A stretch of 33,671 nt of DNA. Source: Mesoaciditoga sp. GTDB lineage: Bacteria; Thermotogota; Thermotogae; Mesoaciditogales; Mesoaciditogaceae. Below are positions 14,334 to 22,815 of the stretch, piece after piece (positions within the stretch are counted from its first letter, which is position 1; each line of letters starts with the position of its first letter). The DNA lies in the NCBI GenBank assembly GCA_015489955.1, contig WFYR01000078.1, positions 1 through 33,671 of the forward strand, in the 5' to 3' direction. Both the position numbers and the translations under genes were made by a program. Under the pieces are notes generated by a model. The model ran no database searches. It was given only the letters and a program-made list of their open reading frames with translations, and was not told the origin of the DNA.

Positions 14334-15367
14334 GATTTTCCTCCAAATTCCCATGCAAGCTTAAAACCAGCCGCAGTTATCCTGTAAAAGTAAATCGGAG
14401 TTGTGGCGTGAATACCGTTAAAAGTAAAGGAATTTCCCACACCAAAAAATGAATGAGAATTCAAATATTGCTTCACTTCTTTGTAACTCACTTTTTCTTT
14501 TGCCAAAACGTACGCAACTTTCAAAGCATTGTATGCTAACACGGCGGCTGGCGTGAGCACCAGATTGTCATGAGAGATTTCTTGATTTAACGTGGATTGA
14601 AGGTAAAATGGATCCACAAAAGCAATTGTTACCATACCTTTAACTACTTGAATATGTTCAAGCAATAGACTATGGAATGTCCAATCACTTCCTAAAAAAG
14701 CCGAATTCGGAAATTTCTCCTTAAGATTTTCAACAGTTTCCACTGCGTGTTCTGGCGACATGATAAGCACAAAGACATCTGGAGAATGAACGATTTTTCC
14801 CGTTTCGCTCAAAAAAATGCTCTTTGCTTTTATCCCACTTAAATCCTTAAGAATTTCACCAGCCAGATAATTCACATACACCAAATTGGTCGTATCTTTT
14901 ACTATCACAACGTCCTTAAAACCCATTTGCTTAAGATATGTGGCTATGGCTTCAGCTTGAACATCATCGGTGGGGGAAAGAGTGAAGGCAAACTTGGCCT
15001 TTTTCAGCATTGTAGGGTTTGTTACGGTCGTCTCAATTAAGATAGAATGGGCTCTTTCAAGAAACCCGTCTATTTTTTCAAGATCAGATGAATACCCATC
15101 CGAAACGAAATATTCTACGCCTTCTTCAACCGCTTTTTTCATAGCGCTAACCAAAGTCGTGGAAGTGTAGTCAACATCTATAAAATGAACATCTTTAGGC
15201 AATTTCTTCATGGCAGTTAAAAAGCCAACTCTGGCATCAAAATGTGCATCAACATCATCGGTGGGTAAAAGTATACCCACCGTTGTTCTTTCTTTGTAAG
15301 GATTGAATAGCATGAACAATATAATGAGCCCTAAAACTACGAAAATAACGATTCCCGCTCTTTTCAT
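14330..15367 (-). CDS. membrane-tethered periplasmic-binding-protein-like (type 1 fold) protein
   Basis: The 345-residue protein has an N-terminal hydrophobic segment (residues 4-22) without a clear cleavage site or lipobox, so it is probably anchored in the membrane. From residue 28 it resembles branched-chain amino-acid binding proteins (type 1 periplasmic-binding fold): TTVGILLPTDDVDAHFDARV, FVSDGYSSDLEKI, FAFTLSPTDDVQAEAIATYL, AFLGSDWTF and LTPAAVLAYNALKVAYVLAK. No permease or ATPase gene is adjacent. Both its start and its stop overlap neighbours by 4 bases (kamE upstream, GGDEF gene downstream). A sensory role delivering a ligand signal to the downstream GGDEF protein is more likely than transport; the ligand is unknown, with lysine-type compounds suggested only by context. 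Confidence 0.8.
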   Translation of the reverse strand: MKRAGIVIFVVLGLIILFMLFNPYKERTTVGILLPTDDVDAHFDARVGFLTAMKKLPKDVHFIDVDYTSTTLVSAMKKAVEEGVEYFVSDGYSSDLEKIDGFLERAHSILIETTVTNPTMLKKAKFAFTLSPTDDVQAEAIATYLKQMGFKDVVIVKDTTNLVYVNYLAGEILKDLSGIKAKSIFLSETGKIVHSPDVFVLIMSPEHAVETVENLKEKFPNSAFLGSDWTFHSLLLEHIQVVKGMVTIAFVDPFYLQSTLNQEISHDNLVLTPAAVLAYNALKVAYVLAKEKVSYKEVKQYLNSHSFFGVGNSFTFNGIHATTPIYFYRITAAGFKLAWEFGGKS

Positions 15368-16116
15368 AACACCCTCTTCGAAATTTCAACCGCTATGTAC
15401 GAAGCGACATCGGAAGGCAAAGTCCCATTTCCAAATCCAGCATCGTAGCCCAATTCAACAGCAAGTTCATGAGTTATACGAGGACCTCCTGCTATCAACA
15501 GAATGGATTTTCTCAATCCTTCCGCTTCCAGTATATCGGCCAGCTCCACCAGATTCTTCACATGTATATTTCTCTGAGTCACAACTTGAGAAACCAAGAC
15601 AACGTCCGCATTCGTTTCCCTGACTTTCTTTGCCACTTCAGCTGGCGGAACCTGGCTTCCCATATTGTAAACTTTGAACATTTTATACCTTTCAAGACCA
15701 GAATCACCATGGTAACCTTTCATATTCAAAATCGAATCAAGCCCCACCGTGTGAGCGTCCGTTCCAATCGTTGCGCCAACTACAACTATTTGCCTTTTGA
15801 CGTGCTCTTGTATGTATTTATCGACTTCTTCCATACTCATTTTTGGCGTTTCAACCTCTAAAACCTTTATTTCATTGTAATCAATTGAGGTATTTAGATG
15901 ACCGTAAACGACAAAAAAAGAAAAATTCTCCTTTAAATCCTCGGAAAATACTATTTGCACATCTGTGAGTCCCATCTTATTCGCAATTTGCCGTGCCGCC
16001 TCGCGGGCTTTAGATCCGTTTGGCACTGGTAATGTAAAAGAAAGCTGAACGGCACCATCATCCATTTGGTCTCCATACGGTTTAAGATGAGACAAATCAA
16101 CTTTTTTTACACTCAT
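15364..16116 (-). CDS. kamE: lysine 5,6-aminomutase, beta (cobalamin-binding) subunit
   Basis: The 250-residue subunit contains the B12-binding motif DAHTVG with the cobalt-ligand histidine at residue 122. A lysine exactly 11 residues later (Lys133 in ILNMKGYHGD) corresponds to the His133/Lys144 spacing of the Clostridium sticklandii enzyme, where that lysine forms the PLP Schiff base. The complex with KamD moves the terminal amino group of D-lysine (or L-beta-lysine) from C6 to C5 using adenosylcobalamin and PLP, a step of lysine fermentation. It overlaps kamD by 4 bases (GGAGG inside the kamD end) and the PBP-like gene by 4 bases. Split subunits of this size argue against ornithine 4,5-aminomutase (OraS about 120 and OraE about 730 residues). 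Confidence 0.93.
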   Translation of the reverse strand: MSVKKVDLSHLKPYGDQMDDGAVQLSFTLPVPNGSKAREAARQIANKMGLTDVQIVFSEDLKENFSFFVVYGHLNTSIDYNEIKVLEVETPKMSMEEVDKYIQEHVKRQIVVVGATIGTDAHTVGLDSILNMKGYHGDSGLERYKMFKVYNMGSQVPPAEVAKKVRETNADVVLVSQVVTQRNIHVKNLVELADILEAEGLRKSILLIAGGPRITHELAVELGYDAGFGNGTLPSDVASYIAVEISKRVL

Positions 16117-17684
16117 AACTCTTCCTCCTCAAGCTCTTCTTCCATCATCTCAAAAATGGGATTGTAATAATCTTCGCCTTTTGTGAAGACCCCGTCCGCA
16201 CCTTTTCCTTCTTCTCTTTTTCTCGCTATGTCTCCAAAAGTTCCTTCTTCTATTGCCGAAATCAAACCAATATCTTTTACGTGTTCCAAAAGCTCAACGG
16301 CGTTCGAAAGCACTTCATTAGCTCTCTTTTGAATAAAACCGTTTTCCTTGAAGATGATCTCATCGCCAATGTTTTTGGCGTTGTTGAAAACGTACTTCGC
16401 GTTCTCTATAGCCAGATATCTGTCCTGCAAAAATGGGGTGTGAATCGCTTCCGTAAGCATTCCTAAAAGTTGTATGGATTGACCTGTCATTATGGAAACA
16501 AGGTTGTACATGGTGTTCATAGCGTATCCTTTAAAGATATCACCTGTCATATGTCTCGTTGGTGGCATGTATTTTGGCGTTGCTTCTGGGAAAAGCTCTC
16601 TGGTCAACAATGCATGTGCTATTTCATAAAGGAATCCATTTTCTATGTCCGGATCTATCTCAAAAGCATGCCCAATTCCCATGTACTTTGGTTTTAAATG
16701 GCTTTTCAAAGCGAATTGTTCATTTATGAGTTGTGAAGTGGTTACCGTATGGGCCCTATCTATTGGATCGGATGTTTTGATGTAATTATCCTCACCTGTG
16801 TTAATTGTAATGTGAGAATAAGCGCATATCAGTCTTGATGTATATTGATCAACAAAGGTTCTCAACATGTTTATATTTCTAAAAAGGATTCCATACATCG
16901 AATCGTTTAAAAGGAAATCCAAACCCTCAATCGCCGCCATTGCGCTTATTTCAGGCATGCAAAGTCCCGAAGCGTAATTCGTTAAACGTATATACCTTCC
17001 AACCTCATTTGCCGCTTCATCCAGCGCTTTTCTCATTATACGGAAATTCTCCTGAGTTGCGTAAGTGCCACCGTATCCTTCTGTTGTCGGGCCGTAAGGA
17101 ACAAAATCAAGCAAAGACTGTGCCGTTGAACGTATAACAGCTATTATATCCGCCCCTTCTTTCACGGCGGCTTTAGCCTGAATAACGTCTTCGTATATGT
17201 TACCGGTGGCAACTATAACGTAAAGGTAAGGTTGAGCCGGATCACCAAGTTCTTCCAACATTTTATCTCTTTCATCTCTAACTTTTCTTAAACGTTCCAG
17301 CGCTTCCTGTGTTAGCTCCTCTATCTTTTCCGCTACCACACTCTCGTTTTGCGGTGGAAAATCCACCAACGAAAATTCTCCTCTTCCAACGCTTTCTGCA
17401 ATTTCTTGAGGAGACATGCTTTTGGCAACGCACGCGTTTACAAGCCAATACGTAATTCCTCTGTCCAAAGCCCCGGATTTTTGAACGTCGTCTACCACCA
17501 CGTTGGGAAGAGGAACTCCTTCATGATTAACACCATCTATTCCGTAAAATCTTGCAACTGTTCTTTCCACAGACGTTGTACTTCTAACATCTATGAATTT
17601 CTGAATCTCATCGGTGATTTCTCTTGCCAACTTTCTGGCTCTTTTTACCATATTTTCGTCTAAATTCAGAACGGGCTTACCCAT
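16113..17684 (-). CDS. kamD: lysine 5,6-aminomutase, alpha subunit
   Basis: The 523-residue protein matches the length of KamD (about 516-520) and opens with family-like text (NLDENMVKRARKLAREITDE, then STTSVERTVARFYGIDGVN). It contains YLYVIVATGNIYEDVIQAKA and SLLDFVPYGPTTEGYGGTYA, typical of the TIM-barrel subunit that holds the AdoCbl/PLP active site with KamE. A strong GGAGGAAGAG lies before the ATG. It begins 28 bases after hisS on the same strand, so it is probably co-transcribed with udg and hisS. The acidic tail EEELEEEEL overlaps the kamE ribosome-binding site. No kamA, kdd, kce or kal partners of the full lysine pathway are in the window. Confidence 0.93.
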   Translation of the reverse strand: MGKPVLNLDENMVKRARKLAREITDEIQKFIDVRSTTSVERTVARFYGIDGVNHEGVPLPNVVVDDVQKSGALDRGITYWLVNACVAKSMSPQEIAESVGRGEFSLVDFPPQNESVVAEKIEELTQEALERLRKVRDERDKMLEELGDPAQPYLYVIVATGNIYEDVIQAKAAVKEGADIIAVIRSTAQSLLDFVPYGPTTEGYGGTYATQENFRIMRKALDEAANEVGRYIRLTNYASGLCMPEISAMAAIEGLDFLLNDSMYGILFRNINMLRTFVDQYTSRLICAYSHITINTGEDNYIKTSDPIDRAHTVTTSQLINEQFALKSHLKPKYMGIGHAFEIDPDIENGFLYEIAHALLTRELFPEATPKYMPPTRHMTGDIFKGYAMNTMYNLVSIMTGQSIQLLGMLTEAIHTPFLQDRYLAIENAKYVFNNAKNIGDEIIFKENGFIQKRANEVLSNAVELLEHVKDIGLISAIEEGTFGDIARKREEGKGADGVFTKGEDYYNPIFEMMEEELEEEEL

Positions 17685-17712
17685 TTCTCTTCCTCCTCTG
17701 CAAAATGATAAA

Positions 17713-18978
17713 TCAATGCCATTGAAGGTTTGAATCGCACTTCTCTTCTTTCAACCTTCTCTTTATTTCCGAAAGCGATAATTTAACTTGTGAACCGTCG
17801 AACATATTTTTCAAAGTGTAAATCTCGCTCTTCATTTCTTCTTCTCCAACGATAATAACGTAATGAGCGCCCAATTTTGAAGCGTTTTTAAATTGAGATT
17901 TCATCTTTCTTCCCATAACATCTGTCTCAACTATGAATTCTTTTGAAAGTTCAAATGCTATGCTCAAAGCACGCGGCCTTTGTTCGTCTTCTACGGCCAC
18001 CACGTAAACCTGCGGGGAAGGTTTATCTGGCAATTTCTTTTCCCTTTCCAAAGCTATCATGACTCTTTCCATTCCCATGGCAAACCCTACGGAAGGCGTT
18101 GTTCTTCCTCCTAACTCCTCTATGAGATGATCGTACCTTCCTCCTCCGGCAAGAGCATCTTGAGCTCCAAGAGAGGTGGAAGTTATCTCAAAAACCGTCC
18201 GCGTGTAGTAATCTAAGCCCCTCACAATAGTTGGATCCACTTCGTAATCCACACCAAGCGTATCCAGAAGCTCTTTAACCCTGTTAAAGTGTTCTTTACA
18301 CTCATCACAAAGGTAATCCAATATTATTGGAGCACTCTTTGCGTATTGGGCATCTTTTTTGCAATCCAATAAGCGTAGTATATTTCTATCGTATCTTATC
18401 TGACAATCGTCGCACAACTTTGGAAGCAAAGGCTTGTAGTACTCTTTAAGTGCTTCCTTGTACTTTGGCCTGCACTTTTCGCATCCCGTAGAATTTATCT
18501 TCAGTTTAAATTCTTTCAATCCAAGAGCTTTTAAAGCTTCCACAGCCAACACGATGATTTCAACGTCCGCTTCTGGACGAGAAGAGCCTATCAACTCTGC
18601 GCCATATTGATGAAATTGTCTTAACCTGCCAGCTTGAGGCTTTTCATATCTAAACATTGGACCTATGTAAAATAATTTCTGCGGGAGACCTCGAGAATCT
18701 AAAGAATGTTCCACAAACGCCCGCATAACTGGAGCCGTTCCTTCTGGCCTTAAAGTGATGGATCTTCCACCTTTGTCTTCAAACGTGTACATTTCTTTCT
18801 GAACTATATCAGTGTCAGTTCCAACACCCCTTTTGAAGAGTTCTGTTGCTTCAAAAATAGGTGTTCTTATCTCAGAAAACCCAAATTTTTTTGAAACGCT
18901 TCTCAGTTTGTCTTCCACCCATTCCCAAACGTATGAGTCTTCAATTATATCGTTGGTTCCTTTTATTCTTCTGATCAC
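17713..18978 (-). CDS. hisS: histidyl-tRNA synthetase
   Basis: The 421-residue protein is a full-length class II HisRS. It begins MIRRIKGTNDI with class II motif 1 near TPIFEATELFKRGVG, motif 2 near FYIGPMFRYEKPQAGRLRQF, the HisRS-specific stretch VRGLDYYTRTVFEI and motif 3 near GGGRYDHLIEELGG ... PSVGFAMGMERVM. The anticodon-binding domain follows (about 325-410). It starts with GTG, five bases after AGGTG, which itself overlaps the end of the uracil-DNA glycosylase gene four bases upstream. It charges tRNA-His in the cytoplasm. Confidence 0.97.
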   Translation of the reverse strand: MIRRIKGTNDIIEDSYVWEWVEDKLRSVSKKFGFSEIRTPIFEATELFKRGVGTDTDIVQKEMYTFEDKGGRSITLRPEGTAPVMRAFVEHSLDSRGLPQKLFYIGPMFRYEKPQAGRLRQFHQYGAELIGSSRPEADVEIIVLAVEALKALGLKEFKLKINSTGCEKCRPKYKEALKEYYKPLLPKLCDDCQIRYDRNILRLLDCKKDAQYAKSAPIILDYLCDECKEHFNRVKELLDTLGVDYEVDPTIVRGLDYYTRTVFEITSTSLGAQDALAGGGRYDHLIEELGGRTTPSVGFAMGMERVMIALEREKKLPDKPSPQVYVVAVEDEQRPRALSIAFELSKEFIVETDVMGRKMKSQFKNASKLGAHYVIIVGEEEMKSEIYTLKNMFDGSQVKLSLSEIKRRLKEEKCDSNLQWH

Positions 18979-18982
18979 GTTT

Positions 18983-19585
18983 TCACCTACTTTTCATTTG
19001 CCTTGTGAAATCATCGTACATTTTCTTCAATTTTTTTATATCTTCCCATGTAAGGTACTTCGGCGAGCCCGGGGCCTTTGAAGCGTTTCTAAGCAGGTAA
19101 CTTGGATGAAACATCGGGAATACCTTTATTTCTCCCTTCCAGCTGTAAAGCTTTCCCCTTGCCGATGTAATGGATTTCACACTGTCTCCAAGAAAGAACT
19201 TCATGGCGGTTGCCCCCAATGGAACTATTACCCTGGGATTTATAACTTCTATTTGAGCCATGAGAAAAGGAGAGCACGCTTCAACTTCATCCGGCATGGG
19301 AACTCTATTCTTTGGTGGGCGGCATTTAACAACATTGGCTATGTACACTTGTTCCCTTTTAAGCCCCACCGATTCTAATATTTTATCAAAAAGTTTTCCA
19401 GCTCTTCCCACAAAAGGGCGTCCCGTTTTGTCTTCTTCTTCACCGGGGCCCTCTCCAACAAACATTACAGGAGAATAAATGTTTCCTTCACCGGGAACGA
19501 CGTTTATTCTAGTTTCTGACAACCTACACGCGTTACACTTATTTATCCTTTCAACTATCTTGCTCATTATTTCTTCTTTATTCAA
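18983..19585 (-). CDS. family 4 uracil-DNA glycosylase
   Basis: Start placed at TTG 19585, eight bases after GGAGG; a further ATG at 19606 would put that site inside the gene. The 200-residue protein has the family-4 (thermophile-type) features: an N-terminal CNACRLS with two iron-sulfur cysteines (Cys17, Cys20), two more in VVKCRPPKNR and EACSPF, the uracil-binding GEGPGEEEDKTGRPFVGRAG and the C-terminal HPSYLLRN. It removes uracil from DNA and carries a 4Fe-4S cluster. Family 4 is frequent in thermophiles, where cytosine deamination is fast, and this supports a thermophilic host. It leads the udg-hisS-kamDE run. Confidence 0.93.
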   Translation of the reverse strand: MNKEEIMSKIVERINKCNACRLSETRINVVPGEGNIYSPVMFVGEGPGEEEDKTGRPFVGRAGKLFDKILESVGLKREQVYIANVVKCRPPKNRVPMPDEVEACSPFLMAQIEVINPRVIVPLGATAMKFFLGDSVKSITSARGKLYSWKGEIKVFPMFHPSYLLRNASKAPGSPKYLTWEDIKKLKKMYDDFTRQMKSR

Positions 19586-19679
19586 AAGAAGCACCTCCAC
19601 AATCATTTATTTTAGCACAATCGCAACACCAACTCCTTGAGAGTTATCATAAAAATCTGTGTTGTCAACCAGCGATTAC

Positions 19680-19867: not shown

Positions 19868-20722
19868 ATGAGCGAATTGCTGAAAAGCATAAAAGAATGG
19901 GTATCCGTAAAAGAAGGAAGCACAAACGTTGGAATAATAGAAATTGATGGAACGTTGTACGTGATAGATACTGGCTCAAATACCAAATTTGCCAGGGAAC
20001 TTTTTAGCGAACTGGGTGAAGAAAAAAAGATAGTATTGAACACGCATTCGCACGCCGATCATATCCAAGGGAATTCTTTTTTTGAAAAAAATGGTGCCAA
20101 GATATTCAGCGATAAGTTAGAAGCGGTGTTCATAAGAAATCCTGTCCTGGAAAGTTTTTACCTTTACGGCGCAATTCCCCCAAAATCGTTGAGGGCTAGT
20201 TTTTACAGAGCACATTCGTCGCATTCTCTTCCTCTTGAAGAAGCTGACTTGCCAAAATATATAGAACCCATTCCGTTAGTAGGTCATTCTTTTGGAATGA
20301 CAGGTTTTAAAATAGATGGCGTCCTCTTCTGCGGAGATGCTTATTTTGGTCGGGAAGTGCTTGAGAAATACTCTTATCCTTATCTGGTAGATGTAGAAAA
20401 GTTCCTGAATTCTCTTGATTTTTTGGAAAAAACAAATGCGGACGTTTACGTGCCGTCCCACGGAAATATAACAAACGATCCGCATGAAGATATAGAAAAA
20501 ACGCGTTCAACGCTTCACTCATTTATAAACGCCACCTTAGATGTTCTTAAGGAGACAAAATCTGTTGAAGAAATTTCATTTAGTCTTGCTGAAATGATGA
20601 ATATCAGCTTGAACAGTGGGACGTTTTATCTCTTTAGATCATTTGTAAGTGCGATTTTATCGCACCTTGAAAAGCAAAAAAATGTGTCACAAGTGTTGCC
20701 AGGCAGATGGAAGAAGATATAA
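19868..20722 (+). CDS. metallo-beta-lactamase-fold hydrolase
   Basis: The 284-residue protein has the MBL-fold metal site: HSHADH (His60, His62, Asp64, His65), a later histidine in PLVGHSFGMTGF, the bridging aspartate in FCGDAYFG and PSHG. A C-terminal helical extension of about 70 residues follows. The start is uncertain: AGAGGGG directly abuts the ATG at 19868, while the in-frame TTG at 19877 has better spacing (9 bases) and would remove three residues. The substrate is unknown; family members include glyoxalase II-like thioesterases, lactonases and nucleases. It begins 20 bases after the tRNA-Gly terminator without a clear promoter, so it may be expressed by read-through. Confidence 0.85.
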   Translation: MSELLKSIKEWVSVKEGSTNVGIIEIDGTLYVIDTGSNTKFARELFSELGEEKKIVLNTHSHADHIQGNSFFEKNGAKIFSDKLEAVFIRNPVLESFYLYGAIPPKSLRASFYRAHSSHSLPLEEADLPKYIEPIPLVGHSFGMTGFKIDGVLFCGDAYFGREVLEKYSYPYLVDVEKFLNSLDFLEKTNADVYVPSHGNITNDPHEDIEKTRSTLHSFINATLDVLKETKSVEEISFSLAEMMNISLNSGTFYLFRSFVSAILSHLEKQKNVSQVLPGRWKKI

Positions 20723-20851
20723 AACATTTCGGGGAATTAACTCATCATGTAAATCAATGAAACCAACGTTTATGAGTAAACAATGAGACGGAAAATATTC
20801 AAAACCTTTGAATATAGCTTAAATCCTTTGAAATTATTCTTCCCTCCTTTG

Positions 20852-20895
20852 TCGGCTCCGCCGCCACTTCCCCCGTAAACGGGGGCAGACTTATA
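20852..20895. repeat. hairpin repeat unit, copy 1
   Basis: This unit contains CGGCTCCGCCGCCACTT followed by the 6-bp hairpin CCCCCG-TAAA-CGGGGG and CAGACTTATA. Its last 33 bases (20863-20895) match copy 3 at 21045-21077 at 31 of 33 positions, counted by eye. Confidence 0.8.
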
Positions 20896-20901
20896 CGAAA
20901 A

Positions 20902-20940
20902 CGGCTCTGCCGACATTCCCCTCACAAGTGGGCGCAAACT
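20902..20940. repeat. hairpin repeat unit, diverged copy 2
   Basis: CGGCTCTGCCG (CGGC-TCT-GCCG hairpin) is followed by ACATTCCCCTCACAAGTGGG and CGCAAACTT. The order of elements is the same as in copies 1 and 3, but the second stem is eroded (CTCAC/GTGGG). Confidence 0.5.
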
Positions 20941-20967
20941 TTTTAATTTGAAAAACAATCACATTAA

Positions 20968-21009
20968 CTCTCCTCTCAAGCCTGGGAGGAGAGGGCCAAC
21001 AACGTTGGC
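20968..21009. repeat. double-hairpin spacer element within the repeat cluster
   Basis: CTCTCCTC (20968-20975) pairs with GAGGAGAG (20986-20993) over a 10-base loop. It is followed at once by GCCAAC-AAC-GTTGGC (20995-21009). These two adjacent perfect stems separate the second and third repeat copies. Confidence 0.6.
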
Positions 21010-21030
21010 GAGGAGGGTTCATTGCCCCCT

Positions 21031-21077
21031 TCGGCAGCTTTGCTGCCACTTCCCCCGCACACGGGGGCAGACTTATA
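21031..21077. repeat. hairpin repeat unit, copy 3
   Basis: The first stem is perfect (GGCAGC-TTT-GCTGCC, 21033-21047), followed by the 6-bp stem CCCCCG-CACA-CGGGGG and CAGACTTATA. It is nearly identical to copy 1 over the last 33 bases; the loop bases are where the two copies differ. Confidence 0.8.
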
Positions 21078-21189
21078 TAAATTATATAAAAACGACTCCA
21101 TCGATGTCTCGCATTTTATGATGAGAAATCAAATCCAACAGGTTTTTCCCAAACTAAAATTACTACTTTCATGCCCAACATAAGAATTA

Positions 21190-21216
21190 AAAAAGCCTCT
21201 CTTAGAGAGGCTTTTT
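21190..21216 (-). terminator. rho-independent terminator of ahcY
   Basis: GCCTCTC (21195-21201) pairs with GAGAGGC (21205-21211) over the loop TTA, flanked by A5/T5, directly downstream of the ahcY stop codon. It is symmetrical, so it could also stop plus-strand transcripts. Confidence 0.9.
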
Positions 21217-21218
21217 GG

Positions 21219-22427
21219 TTACCAGCTATTCAGGTATTTTTTCTGTTTTTCGGTTAATGTGTCTATTTCTATTCCAAGAAGCTTTAGCTTCGTTGAAGCG
21301 ATTTCGTAATCTATTTCTGGAGGAACGGCGTACGTTTTTGCTTCCATCTTTTCATGATCGCGTGCTATTTTCAAAACGCTTAAAAGCTGAACGGCGAAGG
21401 AAAGATCCATAATTTCTACAGGATGGCCATCTGCCGCCGCAAGATTTACAAGCCTTCCTTCTCCTATTAGATAGAGCCTCTTGCCATTAACAACGTATTC
21501 TGTGATATTTGGCCTCGCTTCACGTGAAGAAGTTGCCACTTTTTTTAAGTCGGAAACAGATACTTCAACATCGAAATGCCCCGCGTTTGTTAGAATAGCT
21601 CCGTCTTTCATCTTTTCAAAATGCTCTGCTCTTATCACATCGGTGTTGCCCGTAACGGTCACGAAGATATCGCCAATTTCCGCCGCTTTTTCCATTGGCA
21701 TGACTTCAAAGCCATCCATGAAGGCTTCTAATGCTTTTACCTCGTCTACTTCTGTTACTATTACACGTGCCCCCAAGCCTTTTGCCCGCATTGCGACGCC
21801 TTTTCCACACCATCCATATCCTGCGACAACCACCCTTTTCTCGGCAACATTCATGTTGGTGTTTCGCATTATTGAATCCCAAGTTGACTGCCCAGTTCCG
21901 TAACGGTTATCGAAAAGATGTTTTGTGGCGGCATCGTTCACCAATATCGCGGGAACCGCGAGTTTGTTGAAGTTTTCAAGTGCCTTTATCCTTTTAACAC
22001 CACTTGTAGTTTCTTCGCACACGCCCCACAAATTTTCAAGCACTTCTCTTCTCTTTTCATGGGCGGTAACGGTTAGATCTGCGCCATCATCAACTATTAC
22101 ATTTGGCTTGAAATCCAGAGTTTTTTGCAAATTGTTTTCATAAACACTCACATCATGTGTGCGTTCAGCATTTACACGAAGGCCTCTTTTTTTCAATTCG
22201 GCCACTATTTCATCCTGAGTGCTCAGAGGGTTTGAACCTGTTACGGTAACATCTGCACCCAGCTTTGCGATGGATAAAGCTAGATATCCAGTTTTTGCCT
22301 CCAAATGTACCGACACGGCAACTTTTACGCCTTTTAAGGGCTGTTCAGCCTCGTATTTTTTTACAAGTGTGTTTATAACTTCCATTCTTTGCGCGACCCA
22401 TTCGAGTTTTGCACTTCCTATGTCCAT
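21219..22427 (-). CDS. ahcY: S-adenosyl-L-homocysteine hydrolase
   Basis: The 402-residue enzyme splits S-adenosylhomocysteine into adenosine and homocysteine. Catalytic positions align by eye with the human enzyme: His41 (H55), Asp114 (D131), Glu139 (E156, in EETTSGV), Lys169 (K186) and Asp173 (D190). The dinucleotide site is GYGWCGKG (203-210). The position of human Cys195 is Thr178, and the protein is about 30 residues shorter than the eukaryotic form; both traits fit the Thermotoga-type enzyme as I recall it. AGGAGG lies 7 bases before the ATG. It is transcribed alone, with its own terminator. Confidence 0.96.
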   Translation of the reverse strand: MDIGSAKLEWVAQRMEVINTLVKKYEAEQPLKGVKVAVSVHLEAKTGYLALSIAKLGADVTVTGSNPLSTQDEIVAELKKRGLRVNAERTHDVSVYENNLQKTLDFKPNVIVDDGADLTVTAHEKRREVLENLWGVCEETTSGVKRIKALENFNKLAVPAILVNDAATKHLFDNRYGTGQSTWDSIMRNTNMNVAEKRVVVAGYGWCGKGVAMRAKGLGARVIVTEVDEVKALEAFMDGFEVMPMEKAAEIGDIFVTVTGNTDVIRAEHFEKMKDGAILTNAGHFDVEVSVSDLKKVATSSREARPNITEYVVNGKRLYLIGEGRLVNLAAADGHPVEIMDLSFAVQLLSVLKIARDHEKMEAKTYAVPPEIDYEIASTKLKLLGIEIDTLTEKQKKYLNSW

Positions 22428-22512
22428 TTACCTTCCTCCTTCGTTCTTCATTCGTTTATTTCCCATCTTAACAAATCATAACATAAAATCGTTTGAAAAG
22501 GAGAAATACATT

Positions 22513-22815
22513 TTATTTTAAGAAAAGAGAAAAAACGGATATCAAAAATCCTCCTATTACTTCGAATCCTTTTAAATTAGAACATTGCTTGAAATAGAAA
22601 TAGGTGTTGATCATCACCAAAAGCCCTAAAATGAAAAGGGCGTATTGCGATAATTTTGGGCTTTTAAAACGTAAAAGGAGAAATGAAATCGAAAGTACTA
22701 AAAGGACAAGCCCTATCCAATTGAAGGGGAAGAAAAATGAAGGGCGGTAGGATATAAGGGAATAGAAAACAAGAAACAATCCCAGAGTGATGAAAGAAAT
22801 GGAAATGTACTTCAT
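22513..22815 (-). CDS. small four-helix membrane protein, unknown
   Basis: Start taken at ATG 22815, which overlaps the upstream stop (ATGA); a longer open frame to 22863 would overlap that gene by 52 bases. The 100-residue product has about four hydrophobic helices (roughly residues 3-23, 31-50, 59-77 and 85-99) and few charges. No family is recognised. It is the second gene of a two-gene unit with the 135-residue protein. Confidence 0.6.
   Translation of the reverse strand: MKYISISFITLGLFLVFYSLISYRPSFFFPFNWIGLVLLVLSISFLLLRFKSPKLSQYALFILGLLVMINTYFYFKQCSNLKGFEVIGGFLISVFSLFLK

Follow-up and report, generated by a model that had tools for sequence, protein, structure and literature searches.

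Triplex repeats of the BoxC/PIT/TM type have been reported in more than 260 genomes. The available text of that report (Holder et al., PMC4666352) describes many dispersed copies in many phyla, with pairs in opposite orientation, each combining a C-rich and a G-rich arm with a third tract, the mirror image of the arm. The loops are given as 1-6 nt, with a second loop of about 3 nt, and around the TM sites of E. coli its authors found no genes for mobility. Two other relevant systems, the GTAG REPs with their RAYT transposases and the CGTC REPs, are treated in PMC3733652. In its available text, the CGTC REPs, reported in Thermotogae too, are said to lack a dedicated transposase, and in-frame REPs are known for both families. 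The DUF559/YcjD/VsrA nucleases and I-Bth0305I (PMC1189080, PMC12907096; structures 3hrl and 3r3p) share their domain and fold with a gene described below, and no repeat-dispersing role is described for them in the available parts of those papers. No paper linking DUF559 to repeats was found in the PMC literature searched.

The locus analysed here lies in a 33,671-nucleotide stretch (the window), which is contig C78 of a Mesoaciditoga genome assembly (G000; 1.77 Mb, 120 contigs, 88% complete). A cluster of GC-rich hairpins is present between two convergent genes, a metallo-hydrolase-like gene and the gene for adenosylhomocysteinase (ahcY). As the preliminary description had noted, its composition departs from the surroundings, with a GC content of 55.8% across the reported interval and 38.9% window-wide. 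The repeats follow a common order of C-rich tract, hairpin 1, CA, hairpin 2 and A. Unit 1 (20842..20889, plus strand) has the tract CCCTCCTTTG and a hairpin 2 of CTTCCCCC-GTAAAC-GGGGGCAG. Unit 2 (21024..21071, plus strand) has the tract GCCCCCTTC, a hairpin 1 of GGCAGC-TTT-GCTGCC and a hairpin 2 of CTTCCCCC-GCACAC-GGGGGCAG, so that the loops of hairpin 2 vary and its stems are unchanged, as first described. A decayed forward unit occupies 20903..20940 (plus strand), and yet another such unit has probably left a remnant at 21090..21110 (plus strand), recognised by eye from its likeness to decayed units in other copies. Between these, an inverted unit of another arm type is present at 20969..21017, with the tract CCCTCCTC, hairpin 1 and an arm containing CTCCTCCC on the minus strand; the mirror relation of its tract and arm was read from the sequence. 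The inner ends of the inverted unit and unit 2 meet head to head at 21010..21032 with no gene between them.

The cluster is thus real, although its parts differ somewhat from those first proposed. Two near-identical copies and one diverged copy had been claimed. The repeats are present, with a decayed forward copy at 20903-20940, but the direct repeat 20840-20895/21022-21077 extends over 56 nt at 82% identity, and its copies are therefore similar rather than near-identical. The element taken for a double-hairpin spacer is the inverted unit, that is, the same kind of unit reversed with another arm sequence. Folded as single-stranded DNA, 20840-21078 reached -51.6 kcal/mol, compared with a shuffle mean of -31.8 (z of -5.8), and none of the 200 shuffles folded as well.

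The third tract of unit 2 mirrors the arm at 8/8 positions. The tract of unit 1 is decayed and is an exception to the mirror rule, with a mirror match of 6/8 and a direct match of 7/8. While the C-rich arm, G-rich arm, mirroring tract, dispersal and opposite pairs resemble the BoxC/PIT/TM repeats as described in the available text of PMC4666352, the 1-6 nt loop rule does not hold, as the second loop contains a hairpin of free sequence (hairpin 1) and is about 17 nt long. From its sequence, the unit can thus be classed as a hairpin-bearing variant of these known triplex repeats and not as a plain member. With the GTAG REP/RAYT system (PMC3733652, available text), it shares short palindromic repeats in opposite orientations that flank a nuclease gene and also occur in frame in genes, but the GTAG tag is missing from the window's tracts (CCCTCCTTTG and CCCCCTTCG); tract variants with CCCCCTACG, which contain GTAG on the other strand, occur outside the window. 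A hairpin followed by CCA recalls the CGTC REPs. In the same source, however, these have a hairpin of 8-9 bp with a 4-5 nt loop, while the stem of hairpin 1 in the present unit is 6 bp long and its loop 3 nt, and the mirror tract and hairpin 2 fall outside their description. Nor is CGTC constant in the present units; unit 1 carries TGTC and CCA, and unit 2 carries no tag of this kind (CGTC, TGTC or CCTC).

Copies of the unit are dispersed in the genome and its lineage. The 226-nt block gave 21 blastn matches in its own genome, itself included, and no match in the plasmid and phage collections queried. The exact core pattern was found 11 times in the genome, twice in the window, and the reversed pattern was not found. 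A 61-nt unit consensus gave 25 matches in this genome (two in the window), 24 in a congener that is 99% complete (G001), six in G003 and three in G008; it gave none in the other 37 of the 41 genomes searched. The stems of hairpin 1 covary among copies of this lineage, with 341 of 420 cells paired compared with a mean of 291 and a maximum of 306 in 1000 shuffles, in a set of 70 regex-picked rows of which a few are chance rows. Other copies, conserved stems and covariation between copies, which the preliminary description had named among the checks on its reading, are all in place. A second, unrelated short repeat (20795-20832) abuts the left end of the cluster and has matches in the same genome (contigs C10 and C15) and in G001. 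In G003 (L033/L097), a palindrome, GGGCAATTCATGAATTGCCC, lies between two units and ends in CCCCTAC; by eye, it resembles a GTAG-type REP.

A scan of one genome per species, using a pattern that fixed hairpin 2 only, returned at least 109 stretches from many phyla. The matches listed include Mesoaciditogaceae, Anaerolineae, Pasteurellaceae, Alphaproteobacteria such as Maricaulis, Muribaculaceae, Gastranaerophilales, Riflebacteria and Elusimicrobium, among others, and in nearly all of them hairpin 2 is preceded by a C-rich tract and a hairpin whose sequence varies. Among the 108 distinct upstream sequences of the matches listed, the mirror of the arm, CCCCCTTC, was matched at 7 or 8 of 8 positions in 102, and the direct copy, CTTCCCCC, equally well in 12; perfect matches numbered 67 for the mirror and three for the direct copy. 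Within the window's lineage, a mirror tract of at least 7/8 was present for 56/67 units with the arm CTTCCCCC, 6/6 with CTCCTCCC and 4/5 with CCCCTCCC, and a direct copy of the same quality for 13, 2 and 4, respectively. At 8/8, the mirror was found in 24, 5 and 4 of these units, versus 1, 0 and 0 for the direct copy. As the 5' arm of hairpin 2 mirrors the tract, the purine strand can probably fold back as an intrastrand triplex. Mirror symmetry is the sequence rule of such a structure, in which hairpin 1 would form the second loop.

In the congener G001, a DUF559 (PF04480) gene is enclosed by oppositely oriented units. Its last codons run into one unit and its start adjoins another, opposite unit, and the inner ends that meet at 21010..21032 in the window are like those that face the gene in G001. 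This element thus has the same kinds of ends together with a gene, as would the parent of a MITE-like repeat. It also differs from the TM sites of E. coli, near which the authors of PMC4666352 found none. A second piece of DUF559 in G001, where a contig ends, likewise has a unit next to it, and a third match lies inside a 650-codon frame on contig C1 (E of 6.8e-6). In Maricaulis (L121), the two units that enclose DUF559 are inverted relative to each other, and their 28-nt hairpin-2 ends are identical. DUF559 was not detected in five unit-bearing genomes, namely the window's genome, G003 and G008, whose assemblies are 87-88% complete, and G068 and G073. The G001 gene (L236) is nearest to that of G004 (L237; 67% identity over 101 columns), whose flanking hairpins are of another sequence type; the gene may have stayed in place as its flanks changed.

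The association extends to the level of genomes. Of 39 genomes that have the full unit, 37 gave a DUF559 match, as against none of three where the unit match had no upstream half. Full and half units were sorted by eye ahead of the DUF559 search with one locus per unit-bearing genome. This count omits G003 and G008, both without DUF559 (37/41 if they are included), and covers genomes that are phylogenetically non-independent and were mostly picked for having the unit. In a sample of Gammaproteobacteria drawn around G044, itself picked for the unit, DUF559 was present in 24 of 94, 17 of them with E < 1e-15. At that threshold, the comparison is 36/39 unit genomes versus 16/93 Gammaproteobacteria (Fisher p of 2e-16).

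To compare the two sides of each gene independently of any motif, the reverse-complemented left flank was aligned to the right flank and a cut of 30 applied. The score reached the cut at 54 of 73 DUF559 loci and in none of the 135 shifted windows from the same loci. There were 77 loci to begin with, 70 from unit-bearing genomes; four had flanks shorter than 250 nt, which left 73 to be scored, and one passing locus, L260, passes via a non-hairpin match. Random left/right pairs from different loci reached 30 in 108 of 1500 cases because the repeats, while differing in sequence between loci, share one common grammar. In the Gammaproteobacteria sample, inverted repeats enclose the DUF559 gene at 16 of 19 loci, with 0/36 for shifted windows; 20 strong loci were entered and one had too short a flank, and nine weak-hit loci, L284 (scored in the 73-locus test) and two strong locus-less rows of G114 were left out. 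The loci of G001 (23), G004 (19), E. coli (20) and Neisseria (20) fell below the cut, in G001 owing to the unlike arm types of the two units, and GC-rich hairpins are visible by eye near all four genes. Mirror matching was better than direct copying in 76 of 157 DUF559-flanking units and worse in 15, with 66 ties. Similar repeats flanking DUF559 in many bacteria point to an enzyme that may spread them.

The unit type also tracks the nuclease tree. The spacing between tract and arm required 12 changes, compared with at least 19 in 300 shuffles, and the arm type 26 changes, compared with at least 30 in 300 shuffles, on a poorly resolved tree of the loci whose unit could be recognised (72 of 97), in which host kinship is a confounder. 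In E. coli, ycjD is annotated as DUF559, and the nearby repeat is taken for BoxC after the description in the available text of PMC4666352. Gammaproteobacteria with at least five copies of a BoxC-like pattern carried DUF559 in 9 of 15 cases, versus 15 of 79 for the others (p of 0.002), a cut that was chosen after the counts were seen; G091, G103, G163 and G164 are rich in a reversed control pattern too. No empty site was obtained for ycjD, as the three strains examined without it carry an efflux operon after sapF.

Some DUF559 elements sit in frame in conserved genes (murD and an hsdM-like gene). At L068 (4673-6724), MurD aligns to the solved MurD structure 3lk7 as residues 2-232 and 489-679, and only 12 residues of 3lk7 stand opposite the 256 query residues that hold DUF559 and translated units. 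A frame read as hsdM (L361, 1-2088) contains DUF559 and, separate from it, a short stretch read as a translated unit, and at L090, located at a contig end, DUF559 is followed in one frame by the C-terminal part of an aminotransferase. DUF559 domains were also seen in long open frames of 484 to 1504 codons at L313, L314, L316, L319, L322 and L328.

The G001 DUF559 sequence matches PDB 3hrl (2.7e-20) and, weakly, 3r3p (0.26). When the Maricaulis L074 protein was modelled with AlphaFold2 (mean pLDDT of 82, four aligned sequences), the best matches of the model were 3hrl (6e-7), I-Bth0305I (3r3p; 2.5e-5) and Vsr (1vsr; 3e-3), and residues E22, D51, E62, D64, H68 and D75 are invariant in nine of nine aligned DUF559 proteins. 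By predicted fold and by these acidic and histidine residues, the partner is a Vsr-fold or homing-type endonuclease. As Vsr makes a single-strand nick at mismatches (PMC12907096, available text), a DUF559 nick at a folded unit is, by analogy, a reasonable but unproven first step of movement.

Alternatively, DUF559 could be a homing-type nuclease gene that travels as a passenger. It would insert into repeats that were already there, perhaps through an ability to cut folded DNA, and the repeats would increase in number by slippage, template switching or recombination. The genomes with repeats and no DUF559, the resemblance of the fold to homing endonucleases and the report of triplex repeats as sites of instability (PMC4666352, available text) would all fit. 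Inverted repeats on both sides of the gene at 54/73 and 16/19 loci, the tracking of the nuclease tree, confounded as it is by kinship, and complete elements in frame inside host genes speak against it, and we consider this explanation unlikely.

The preliminary description had proposed a REP- or MITE-type mobile repeat under selection on structure, with a RAYT-like transposase as its possible partner. The first part is supported by the dispersed copies, the occurrence of both orientations, the covarying stems and the near absence of the spacer from other genera. The second is not supported, as the gene between units is DUF559 and PF01797 (Y1_Tnp) had no match in the 88%-complete genome of the window or in the 99%-complete G001, a difference from the GTAG REP/RAYT system in the available text of PMC3733652. 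Dispersal by a RAYT/Y1 tyrosine transposase would fit the anatomy, which is similar in that short palindromic units face opposite ways, and Y1_Tnp is present in 21 of the 39 unit-bearing genomes; given its lack of a match here and the missing GTAG tag, it is very improbable.

The history of the spacer between the hydrolase-like gene and ahcY (20723..21218) was compared in the window, G001, G003, G004 and G006. The protein ends are 503 bp apart in the window and 904 bp apart in G001, and the same gene pair is separated by 32 bp (G003), 7 bp (G004) and 7 bp (G006) in relatives of other genera. Units are present in both long spacers, differently arranged, with further repeats in G001. The spacer has been enlarged through repeat accretion and turnover. 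Elsewhere in the window, 14745-19621 is 77% identical over 4.9 kb to 109000-113874 of G001 contig C64; as the 93% orthologue of this block lies at about 87-91 kb of C64, the 77% match is an old duplication or paralogous block.

A functional RNA structure of the neighbouring genes, such as a terminator, mRNA end protector or regulator, might be suggested by the strong fold, the stem covariation and the position between convergent genes. A spacer of just 7-32 bp in G003, G004 and G006 makes this highly doubtful. Furthermore, the one terminator-like site in the spacer is a separate hairpin at 21190-21216, and earlier studies in E. coli, as related in PMC4666352, detected neither promoter nor terminator activity from motifs of this type. 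At gathering score, Rfam showed no family at the cluster and three tRNAs in the window; six sub-threshold matches (E up to 1) within 20700-21230 were unconvincing.

Comparison of G000 with G001 yielded no base-precise empty site or target duplication for the window's unit, and the flanks of the G001 DUF559 locus map to two different G000 contigs. A MITE that depends on a classical DDE transposase and has nothing to do with DUF559 would agree with the opposite terminal units and the other MITE-like elements of the lineage, but is scarcely credible when a target duplication is not seen and the gene found between units is DUF559. One such other element, unrelated to the unit, may be a 360-nt insertion in G001 (L196:7368-7729) that is absent opposite about 22510-22516 of the window. 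Its ends look partly inverted (CTTATGTTGTGCG ... GCACAATGTGAG), no long inverted repeat was found in it, and a likely 7-bp target duplication (ATTTTAT) suggests another MITE-like family of the genus.

Our preferred explanation, to which we assign a probability of about 0.6, is that the cluster is a mosaic of small, REP-like, non-autonomous mobile elements dispersed by a DUF559 nuclease. Each unit consists of a C-rich tract, a free-sequence hairpin and a C-rich hairpin whose 5' arm mirrors the tract, and would form a triplex-hairpin. The autonomous form would be a DUF559 gene enclosed by two opposite units, with the C-rich inner ends toward the gene and the CAGA ends outward. When a unit becomes single-stranded at a fork or in repair, the nuclease would recognise the fold and nick the element ends or a target, and repair would then copy the unit, or the unit pair, into a new place. 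Gene-less copies would be mobilised in trans, accumulate in spacers, swap parts with one another and decay. Unit-bearing genomes without DUF559, its absence from 6 of the 15 Gammaproteobacteria with at least five BoxC-like copies, and the description of a DUF559 protein of Caulobacter, VsrA, as a repair endonuclease resembling Vsr (PMC12907096, available text) count against DUF559 as the mover, but the enzyme is likely to be the mover of the hairpin-bearing triplex units.

More tentatively, and with the odds slightly against it, DUF559 and triplex-ended repeats, E. coli ycjD and BoxC among them, might together constitute a class of mobile element spread throughout the bacteria, in which a Vsr-fold nuclease replaces the tyrosine transposase. 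Recognition would be of a mirror-symmetric, triplex-folded end and not of a sequence, so that sequences could drift while the arm and the third tract covary, and copies could settle even in frame in conserved genes.

Two published questions meet here, that of BoxC/TM repeats without a known mobility gene in E. coli and that of a nuclease labelled DUF559. The presence of DUF559 between inverted repeats that obey the mirror rule provides a concrete candidate partner for triplex repeats, and E. coli K-12, which carries both ycjD and BoxC, is a ready laboratory model. Should the proposal prove true, a very common kind of bacterial repeat would owe its movement to an enzyme supposed to act in repair, and there would be a biological reader of folded triplex DNA.
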